Shown here: in pieces, positions 29,292 through 40,413 of the stretch
Layout: every line of letters begins with the position of its first letter
Position numbering within the stretch: the stretch's first letter is position 1
Assembly: GCA_022072245.1 (NCBI GenBank)
Contig: JAJVIA010000006.1
Location: 37,958-90,949, forward strand
DNA from: Anaerolineae bacterium
Lineage (GTDB): Bacteria; Chloroflexota; Anaerolineae; UBA4142; SHND01
Direction of reading: 5' to 3'
DNA length: 52,992 bases
Position numbers and translations under genes: made by a program
Notes under the pieces: generated by a model
Seen by the model: only the letters and a program-made list of their open reading frames with translations
Databases searched by the model: none
Told to the model about the DNA's origin: nothing

Positions 29292-29387
29292 GGGGGTAGT
29301 TTTGTCCCGGTGGGCAACGCGGTCTTCAAAATCGTCGCGGGGCGGTGGACCCGTCCCGGGTGGGTTCGACTCCCATCTACTCCCGCC
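29292..29387 (+). tRNA. selC: tRNA-Sec (anticodon TCA)
   Basis: All hallmarks of bacterial selenocysteine tRNA are present. The acceptor stem has 8 bp, GGGGGTAG (29292-29299) with CTACTCCC (29377-29384), one G·U. The D stem has 6 bp, TTGTCC/GGGCAA, with a 4-nt loop CGGT. The anticodon loop CTTCAAA carries TCA at 29326-29328. The variable arm has 8 bp (29338-29358) with loop TGGAC. The T stem has 5 bp and a TTCGACT loop. G (29385) is the discriminator followed by CC. The 8+5 acceptor/T helix plus long variable arm excludes ordinary Ser/Leu tRNAs. Confidence 0.93.
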
Positions 29388-37778: not shown

Positions 37779-38438
37779 ATGAACATCCATGACGACCTCG
37801 ATGATCTGGAATATCAAAATGCAATCAAATTAAAGTTACGCCAAATCTCGGACGAACAGTATCAAAAGTTTGAAGGATATGCGGCAGAAATTTTTTCGGC
37901 GTTCGGTTTGGATTTGAATACGCCCGCGACCAAAGACACGCCGCGTCGTTTCATCAAAGCGCTTTTCGACGCGACCGAAGGGTACGACGGCGACCCCAAA
38001 TTGCTGCGCGTGTTTGACACGGAATGTCGCGGCGAACCGGATTGTCGCCTGAGCCAAGTGGTCGAGGGCCCAATTCCATTCTTTGCATTGTGCGAACATC
38101 ACGCGCTGCCTTTTTACGGCATGGCGTATGTCGGCTATATCGCGCACGAAAATATCATTGGCATTTCAAAACTAACGCGTCTGGTGCGTCTCTTTGCCAA
38201 ACGCTTTTCGGTGCAAGAACGCATCGGTCAACAAATCGCCGATACGCTCGACACCATGCTTCATCCGCACGGCGTCGCGGTCTTTCTCGAAGCGCATCAC
38301 CTGTGCATGGAAATGCGCGGCGTGCGCGAACTTTCGCCCAAGACGCGCACAACCGTCTGGCGCGGACATTACGCCGCAGACGCCACTTTGCGTTCCGAAT
38401 TTTTTACCGCGTGCGGTTTGCAGCGCAACGAGAAATAG
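37779..38438 (+). CDS. folE: GTP cyclohydrolase I
   Basis: A 219-residue FolE. It converts GTP to 7,8-dihydroneopterin triphosphate, the first step of tetrahydrofolate and pterin synthesis. Zinc ligands are visible in FALCEHHALPFYGMAYVGYI and in HHLCMEMRGVRELSP. DTPRRFIKALFDATEGYDGD and GISKLTRLVRLFAKRFSVQE are family hallmarks. ATG 37779 has AAAGGA upstream. The stop is 3 bp before the selenoprotein-type DsbA gene, so the two are likely cotranscribed. Confidence 0.95.
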   Translation: MNIHDDLDDLEYQNAIKLKLRQISDEQYQKFEGYAAEIFSAFGLDLNTPATKDTPRRFIKALFDATEGYDGDPKLLRVFDTECRGEPDCRLSQVVEGPIPFFALCEHHALPFYGMAYVGYIAHENIIGISKLTRLVRLFAKRFSVQERIGQQIADTLDTMLHPHGVAVFLEAHHLCMEMRGVRELSPKTRTTVWRGHYAADATLRSEFFTACGLQRNEK

Positions 38439-38441
38439 ACC

Positions 38442-39131
38442 ATGACTGAAAAAATGATTCCTGAATTGTGGGAGTGGGCGGAATACTACTGACCGTGGTG
38501 CTATGTTGCAGCCGTGCGTCTGCAAAAAATTGCGCCCGAATACGCGGGCCGCGTACGTTTGCGGCAGCGCGCCTTTCCTCTAGAAGTGTATGGCGGCGGT
38601 CCGCCGGACCGCGCAGAGCTGGAATTGGAAATTTGGCTCGCGGCTTTGCAAGAACCCGCCGCCGTTTTCAAACCGTTCGGCGCGGAATGGCCCACGACGA
38701 CGCTGCCCGCTTTCGAAGCGGCTTGGTGCGCCCGACAACAAGACGAGACGCTGGGAGACGAATTTGATTTACGAATTCGCCGCGCCTTTTTTGCTGAAGG
38801 GCGCAATATCGGAAAACGCGAGGTCATGCTGGAGCTCGCGCGCGAAGCGAATTTAGACATGGAACGCTTTACGCGCGATTTCGATAGCGCCGCGCCGCGC
38901 GCCGCCGTGCTGGCGGAAGGTCGGCTCGGTCAAACGCAATATCGCGTGCGCGGCACGCCGACCATCATGTTGAGCGACGGCGCCAAATTGCGTCACCCAA
39001 TCGCGTATCCCAAAATCCAAGACGGTAAAATTCTGAGCGTCGGAAAATTGCCGTGCTGCGGCGAAGCGTGTTACGCGGCGACGCGCGAAATGTTTGAAAC
39101 CGCGCTCCGCCTGTTTGCTTTTAATGCTTGA
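38442..39131 (+). CDS. Selenocysteine-containing DsbA/FrnE-like thiol oxidoreductase (in-frame TGA at 38490-38492)
   Basis: Reading the TGA at codon 17 as Sec gives 229 residues. The start is MTEKMIPELWEWAEYY, then U17-P-W-C20-Y, replacing the C-P-W-C-Y active site of FrnE-type DsbA proteins. The rest is a full DsbA fold: helical insert, RRAFFAEGRNIGKREVMLEL, and the cis-proline loop RVRGTPTIML (P173). C205, C206 and C210 near the C terminus could form extra redox centres. The ATG is 3 bp after folE and the 3' end overlaps alkA by 8 bp. Conventional calling would start at GTG 38514 and lose the active site. A hairpin after the TGA and tRNA-Sec at 29292 support recoding. Confidence 0.85.
38497..38536 (+). 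promoter_or_regulatory. SECIS-like hairpin after the in-frame TGA
   Basis: The lower stem GGTGC (38497-38501) pairs with GCGCC (38532-38536), one G·U. An internal loop separates it from a perfect 6-bp upper stem TTGCAG (38506-38511)/CTGCAA (38520-38525). The apical loop is CCGTGCGT, starting 19 nt after the TGA. An extra C-G pair with a bulged U would give loop CGUGC. Geometry and the GU in the loop match known bacterial SECIS elements such as that of E. coli fdhF. Confidence 0.7.
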
Positions 39132-40065
39132 CTTGAAACAGCTCGCGCTGACCCTCACGCCCGTTCCGCCCTTTCGGCTCGACCTCACCGCTTGGACGCT
39201 GCGTCGCCGTCCCGACAATTGCGTGGATCGTTGGGACGGCGAAACGTATCGCCGCGTCCTCGTCGCCGCCAATGGCGAACCGTTTGAAATCGCCGTGACG
39301 CAATTCGGGCCGCGCGCCGCGCCGCAACTGCGCGTGACAATCCATTATCGCGCGTCGAGCCGGGGACTCTGCCGCCAAACCGCCGCGGCGTTAGAGCGTT
39401 TGCTCGGCATCCATTTGCGACTGGACGATTTTTATCGTTTTGCCGCGCGCGACGCTAAACTAAAACCGGTGGCGCAACAATTTCGCGGTTTCAAACCGCC
39501 GCGCCTCGAATCGCTCTTTGAAACGCTCGTCAACGCGATGGCGTGTCAACAATTCACGCTGACGGTGGGCATTCGTTTGCTCAATCGGCTCACGGAACGG
39601 TACGGCCAAGCGTTCGTCGGCGCGGACGGAATTTTTTACGCGTTCCCGCGCCCGCAAGATTTAGCGCACGCGGACATCGAGACATTGCGCGCGATGCAGT
39701 TCAGTTATCAAAAGGCGCGCTATATCACCGGCCTGGCGCAAGCGATTGTGCGCGGCGAACTCCAGCTTGAGGAAATCAACGCGCTGGACGACGCGCGCGC
39801 GCTGGCGCGTTTATGCGAATTAAAAGGCGTCGGTCGTTGGACGGCGGAATACTGTCTGCTGCGCGGTCTCGGACGCACGCACATTTTTCCGGCGGACGAT
39901 GTGGGCGCGCGCAATCATTTGCAGCGCTGGCTCGGTTTGCCCGAAAAATTAAATTACGCCGCCGTCCACCAAGCTATCCAACCCTGGAAAAATTACGGCG
40001 GGCTGGTCTATTTTCATTTGCTGCTAAAGAGTTTGACGGAAAAAGCTATCATTGCCGCCGAATAA
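39124..40065 (+). CDS. alkA: DNA-3-methyladenine glycosylase II (AlkA/HhH-GPD)
   Basis: A 313-residue base-excision glycosylase. The helix-hairpin-helix is LCELKGVGRWTAEYCLLRGL and the catalytic Asp is in HIFPADDVGARNHLQ. The N-terminal ~110 residues resemble the AlkA TBP-like domain, and LFETLVNAMACQQFTLTVGI opens the HhH-GPD core. It removes alkylated purines. ATG 39124 overlaps the selenoprotein stop by 8 bp. No Cys-rich [4Fe-4S] tail is seen, which separates it from MutY/Nth. Confidence 0.9.
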   Translation: MLDLKQLALTLTPVPPFRLDLTAWTLRRRPDNCVDRWDGETYRRVLVAANGEPFEIAVTQFGPRAAPQLRVTIHYRASSRGLCRQTAAALERLLGIHLRLDDFYRFAARDAKLKPVAQQFRGFKPPRLESLFETLVNAMACQQFTLTVGIRLLNRLTERYGQAFVGADGIFYAFPRPQDLAHADIETLRAMQFSYQKARYITGLAQAIVRGELQLEEINALDDARALARLCELKGVGRWTAEYCLLRGLGRTHIFPADDVGARNHLQRWLGLPEKLNYAAVHQAIQPWKNYGGLVYFHLLLKSLTEKAIIAAE

Positions 40066-40167: not shown

Positions 40168-40413
40168 ATGAGCGAAAATGTAACGACTACGATTGATGTG
40201 CGCCCCATTCCGCCGCCGCAAAAACATTCGACGATTTTTCAGACGTTTGATGCGCTGGCGCCGGGGCAGAGTTTTATCTTGATTAACGATCACGACCCCA
40301 AACCCCTTTATTATCAATTTGCAAGCGAAATGCCGGGCAAGTTCACTTGGGAATATCTGGAACAGGGCCCCCAAGTTTGGCGCGTGCAAATCGGACGACC
40401 CGCGTCAACCTAA
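40168..40413 (+). CDS. DUF2249 domain protein
   Basis: An 81-residue small protein: VDVRP-like opening (TTIDVRPIPPPQKHSTIFQT), then FDALAPGQSFILINDHDPKP and YLEQGPQVWRVQIGR, the DUF2249 pattern. Family members are often linked to nitrogen-oxide and respiratory gene sets; biochemical function is unknown. AAAGGAG lies 9 nt upstream of the ATG. It is transcribed alone, with a terminator just after it. Confidence 0.85.
   Translation: MSENVTTTIDVRPIPPPQKHSTIFQTFDALAPGQSFILINDHDPKPLYYQFASEMPGKFTWEYLEQGPQVWRVQIGRPAST

Follow-up and report, generated by a model that had tools for sequence, protein, structure and literature searches.

The stretch of DNA analysed here (52,992 nucleotides of one contig of an Anaerolineae bacterium, phylum Chloroflexota; the window) contains a short gene of the DsbA type whose reading frame is interrupted early by an in-frame TGA. 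The gene lies between folE and alkA, and the following features of the window, all on the forward strand, are referred to below.

37779..38438, + strand: folE, GTP cyclohydrolase I, ending 3 bp upstream of the predicted selenoprotein gene
38442..39131, + strand: predicted selenoprotein gene, DsbA/FrnE-type oxidoreductase of 229 residues with ATG start and selenocysteine (Sec) at position 17 (UPWC)
38490..38492, + strand: in-frame TGA, codon 17, assigned as the Sec codon from the TGA/Cys alternation in orthologues; position 1 of the active-site motif U-P-W-C
38494..38538, + strand: candidate bacterial SECIS, from RNA fold, pairing and synonymous conservation
39054..39071, + strand: CX4C motif CCGEAC, codons 205-210; the outer Cys205 and Cys210 are invariant in 23/23 aligned sequences
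39124..40065, + strand: alkA, DNA glycosylase of the AlkA/Ogg-type HhH-GPD family; its ATG at 39124 gives an 8-bp overlap with the predicted selenoprotein gene
29292..29387, + strand: tRNA-Sec gene with anticodon TCA (Rfam RF01852, 70.9 bits; ARAGORN), 9 kb upstream on the same contig

The stop codon of folE (TAG, 38436-38438) is followed after 3 bp by the ATG at 38442, and the frame opened there meets the TGA at codon 17, continues for 212 sense codons and is closed by its stop codon proper, TGA 39129-39131. When the first TGA is translated as U, the product reads MTEKMIPELWEWAEYY-U-PWCYVAAVRL... This layout, with the frame running on into a DsbA fold, had been described in a first-pass annotation of the same DNA and proved exact to the base. 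The longest conventional ORF in this frame starts only at GTG 38514 and encodes 205 amino acids; this is the form in which the program-made list of ORFs gives the gene, and as it begins downstream of the TGA, the UPWC site is lost from it, as the annotation had pointed out. When the ORFs of the whole window were inspected by eye, no other TGA was found that splits a recognisable gene in two or resembles a Sec codon.

Relatives were collected from 25 other genomes and from 396 sampled genomes of the class, and removal of identical copies left 31 distinct full-length orthologues, including the window copy. The codon preceding PWC was TGA in 17 of them (the window copy among these) and TGC or TGT, both encoding Cys, in the remaining 14; TAA, TAG, another residue or a frameshift at codon 17 occurred in 0/31. 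Thus Cys stands at this position in every orthologue without TGA, as the first-pass annotation had expected for the first residue of a CPWC motif, and the ordinary stop or frameshift in relatives that it had named as speaking against Sec was absent. The peptide WAEYY[U/C]PWC is kept across the TGA codon. Among 23 aligned sequences, which are 55-82% identical to the window protein, residues W10, W12, A13, E14, Y15, Y16, P18, W19 and C20 are invariant, in the Cys copies as well. Since W10, W12, A13, E14, Y15 and Y16 precede the TGA, their invariance indicates that the upstream region is translated, and the conserved peptide together with a TGA at the exact codon in 17 distinct sequences shows that the frame across the TGA is not due to chance.

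These data bear directly on the reading that a Cys-type DsbA gene has acquired the TGA by nonsense mutation or that its TGC/TGT codon has been misread. TGA is one base away from either Cys codon, and the rows closest to the window copy on the family tree (L011, L012 and L043) all have Cys, which speaks for this reading. However, 16 further distinct orthologues carry TGA at codon 17 as well, with intact frames on both sides, so that an assembly error at 38490-38492 is very unlikely; moreover, selA, selB, selD and tRNA-Sec are present, and the codons after the TGA are under synonymous constraint in the TGA copies only (see below). A pseudogene or sequencing error was therefore rejected as very improbable, and for the family it is already refuted. 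Similarly small is the probability of a truncated functional protein that starts at GTG 38514, which would have no active site and would leave the upstream part untranslated. This ORF is the longest conventional one, but the residues on both sides of the TGA listed above are invariant in 23/23 sequences, Cys copies included, and the first strand of the modelled fold (residues 8-13) lies upstream of the TGA.

A Sec codon in bacteria calls for a SECIS element, and in the window RNA a candidate hairpin directly follows the TGA. Its lower stem is formed by 38494-38495 and 38497-38501 pairing with 38532-38538, and its apical stem of 6 bp (38506-38511 with 38520-38525) closes an 8-nt loop, CCGUGCGU. 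The fold energy was -17 kcal/mol, with a z of about -2 (-2.1). The apical helix was paired in 94% of cells in Sec copies compared with 56% in Cys copies. Synonymous identity over codons +5 to +12 was 0.754 in Sec copies, compared with 0.517 over the whole gene, which placed these codons at rank 2 of 201 eight-codon windows; in Cys copies the same codons showed no excess (0.438 versus 0.442 gene-wide). This synonymous conservation after the TGA, restricted to Sec copies, is the strongest sign of a SECIS-like hairpin. Pair covariation of the hairpin did not exceed that of shuffled controls, a search of Rfam with the hairpin gave no match, and in two Sec copies (L022 and L025) the minimum-energy fold differed from the candidate structure. 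A SECIS-like hairpin after the TGA is thus likely, its exact shape being less certain than its presence.

The machinery for Sec insertion was found as well. The genome to which the window belongs contains selA, selD and, over the cut-off, selB, and tRNA-Sec is encoded inside the window itself; the search proposed by the first-pass annotation accordingly returned all three genes, and the genome without selB/selA that would have contradicted the annotation is not what was found. The tRNA-Sec gene is solitary in the window, with cytochrome bc-type genes on one side and ABC-transporter genes on the other, and selA, selB and selD are located on contigs other than that of tRNA-Sec. Across genomes, selA was detected in 18/18 tested genomes with a TGA copy (the own genome plus 12 plus 5) versus 9/15 with a Cys copy (p ~0.005, hypergeometric, kinship ignored). 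That UGA is read as another amino acid, by a suppressor tRNA or in a reassigned code, is hardly credible: although read-through of the frame by itself leaves the residue unnamed, every non-TGA orthologue has Cys, the complete Sec machinery including tRNA-Sec was found, and TGA serves as an ordinary stop codon of other genes in the window (e.g. 4562, 22742) and of this gene itself (39129), so that TGA is not globally reassigned. Altogether, it is well supported that the apparent stop encodes Sec at the catalytic site of an enzyme of this Chloroflexota bacterium, which would contain selenium and handle disulfides. The gene call is corrected accordingly, as the standard one would omit the catalytic site.

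In the same genome, selD (G000:C22:39758-40690, L008) has an in-frame TGA within CAGUASKLG and is thus predicted to encode a selenoprotein SelD, a known type. A match from the same genus (L036) represents a different Sec DsbA-type protein, MQPIRIDVWSDFV-U-PWC, only 24% identical to the window protein, and an orthologue of it is present in the window's own genome (G000:C1:49953-50540, L056). Orthologues of this second type carry TGA in four genomes (L056, L053, L054 and L055, i.e. the own genome and three congeners) and TGC in one (L057). A GGCTTGAGTCTCAAGC hairpin with a GUC loop shortly follows the TGA in 4/4 of the TGA copies, whereas the Cys copy L057 lacks it. Together with the window protein and SelD, at least three selenoproteins are therefore predicted for this genome, two of them of the DsbA type.

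Concerning the protein family, the read-through product matched Pfam DSBA (PF01323) over residues 11-179 with an E-value of 3e-17 and 63.5 bits, above the curated cut-off of 25.6. An AlphaFold2 model, in which Cys was put at position 17, had a mean pLDDT of 91 and a pTM of 0.89 and showed a DsbA-type fold; the thioredoxin fold with inserted helical domain that defines the family was seen both in the model and by Foldseek. Foldseek matches to 2in3, DsbM and FrnE had E-values of 1e-7 to 1e-8, and the nearest solved folds thus include the cytoplasmic disulfide oxidoreductases 2in3, DsbM and Deinococcus radiodurans FrnE. None of the NCBIfam families matched the read-through protein. Two traits of FrnE proteins were found: the CP(W/F)C-type active site, as [U/C]PWC in all orthologues (23 aligned), and the C-terminal CXXXXC of many, though not all, members of the FrnE subfamily, as C205/C210. 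The first-pass annotation had proposed a cytoplasmic FrnE-like Sec oxidoreductase; the assignment to Sec-containing DsbA-type enzymes is supported, FrnE being one of several cytoplasmic DsbA-type relatives (2in3, FrnE and DsbM) that were about equal in score in both the PDB sequence search and Foldseek.

In the model, the CX4C motif is located at the beginning of the last helix. The loop before the last helix of a thioredoxin fold is on the active-site side. In D. radiodurans FrnE, the C-terminal CXXXXC is near the CXXC of the partner molecule and aids reduction by thioredoxin reductase (PMC8945050).

The genomic neighbourhood is partly conserved. Among the loci of the 25-genome search, the alkA gene was found downstream in 11/11 Sec-copy loci long enough to show the region and in one Cys locus; folE was nearby in seven loci, and an eighth has a fragment of it. 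In relatives, the selenoprotein gene and alkA are usually separated by a CMD/AhpD-family gene, which is missing in the window; nearby genes in relatives also include metE and those for an NAD(P)H flavoprotein, DUF488 and a cupin. In the window, alkA is followed by a DUF2249 gene at 40168, and reading of L017 revealed the same. An Anaerolineae cluster, situated at about 6.7-8.6 kb in locus coordinates, is kept in L010, L014, L016, L018 and L019; it comprises a Sec or Cys DsbA-type gene, a CMD/AhpD-family gene, alkA and often DUF488, with metE, NAD(P)H flavoprotein or folE genes near it. From the spacing and the conserved neighbourhood we infer that the selenoprotein gene is probably cotranscribed with folE and alkA. 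The links to alkA and folE and, in relatives, to AhpD/CMD and NAD(P)H flavoprotein genes suggest that the protein may function in oxidative or alkylation stress.

On the family tree, which was rooted at midpoint only and drawn without the outgroup rows L050-L052, Sec and Cys copies are interleaved, with at least 8 changes by parsimony, 3 of which are forced by well-supported branches. Copies from Gemmatimonadota and Thermomicrobiota all have Cys. The distribution of the gene is patchy: a match of ≥70% identity was present in 13/396 genomes of the class, the gene was absent from the 19 other genomes of the window's order that were searched, two having weak matches only (25-27% identity), and no relative was found in plasmid records. 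Horizontal transfer of the Sec-DsbA gene is plausible. The Cys copies L016, L020, L021 and L042 (G375) are nested among Sec copies, and their genomes retain selA; this suggests that Sec has been changed to Cys in place without loss of the Sec machinery. Close Sec and Cys orthologues in the same neighbourhood, sometimes with the Sec machinery kept, provide a natural comparison of the benefit of Sec over Cys in a DsbA-type enzyme.

We consider it highly probable that, as a whole, these observations are best explained by a selenoprotein from the cytoplasmic DsbA/FrnE/DsbM group with SECIS-driven Sec17, whose UPWC site would be that of a reductase or isomerase served by a putative CX4C relay. According to this model, the hairpin right after the UGA would bring SelB with Sec-tRNA to the codon, resulting in Sec at position 17. 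The UPWC site would then serve to reduce or isomerise disulfides. By analogy with D. radiodurans FrnE, the selenolate of Sec17 may attack a substrate disulfide or oxidised thiol, Cys20 would then resolve the selenenyl-sulfide, and Cys205/Cys210 could relay electrons that re-reduce UPWC from a thioredoxin/thioredoxin-reductase-like system. It is possible, but rather doubtful, that the protein represents a distinct Sec-DsbA subfamily that combines the Sec-Cys pair and CX4C relay with an operon for AlkA-type repair and AhpD-like peroxide reduction and with repeated in-place Sec/Cys exchange; if so, this subfamily would constitute a selenium-dependent stress-repair module in Anaerolineae.

Compared with known systems, D. 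radiodurans FrnE (DR_0659; 5cnw, 5co3, 5xwh) shares the cytoplasmic DsbA-type fold, the CPWC motif and a C-terminal CX4C, which is suggested to restore the active site of that protein (PMC8945050). It differs in having Cys instead of Sec, is 18-19% identical in the Foldseek alignment, and carries the CX4C in the tail after the last helix, whereas the motif is at the N-terminus of this helix in the window protein. Pseudomonas aeruginosa DsbM (5hfg, 5hfi), the best single-sequence PDB match with 25% identity in the Foldseek alignment, shares the fold of a cytosolic disulfide reductase; unlike the window protein, it has a Cys active site aligned as C-G-W-C and no Sec. As the first-pass annotation had stated, Sec-containing DsbA-like proteins have been reported before: descriptions of such UxxC proteins belonging to COG2761 go back to 2005. 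Nine DsbA-like UxxC proteins come from the Sargasso Sea, where they were placed in COG2761 (PMC1088965), bacterial genomes contributed four (PMC1794560) and GOS several forms (PMC2398784), and they also appear in a 2026 review (PMC13188914). As far as passages from these four papers tell, the known COG2761/PF01323 UxxC selenoproteins and the window protein have in common the fold family, Sec in place of the first Cys of CxxC and widespread Cys homologues. In the passages from the four papers, which were compared by term, the C-terminal CX4C, the alkA/folE cluster and a Chloroflexota clade are not mentioned. Since UxxC DsbA-like selenoproteins have been described earlier, the kind of protein is known, and what is added here is an operon-linked member hidden by gene calling, by which Chloroflexota gain a well-supported selenoprotein clade. 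Set against these literature passages only, the invariant C-terminal CX4C, the conserved link to alkA, the repeated Sec/Cys switching and the second Sec-DsbA in the same genome are new details.
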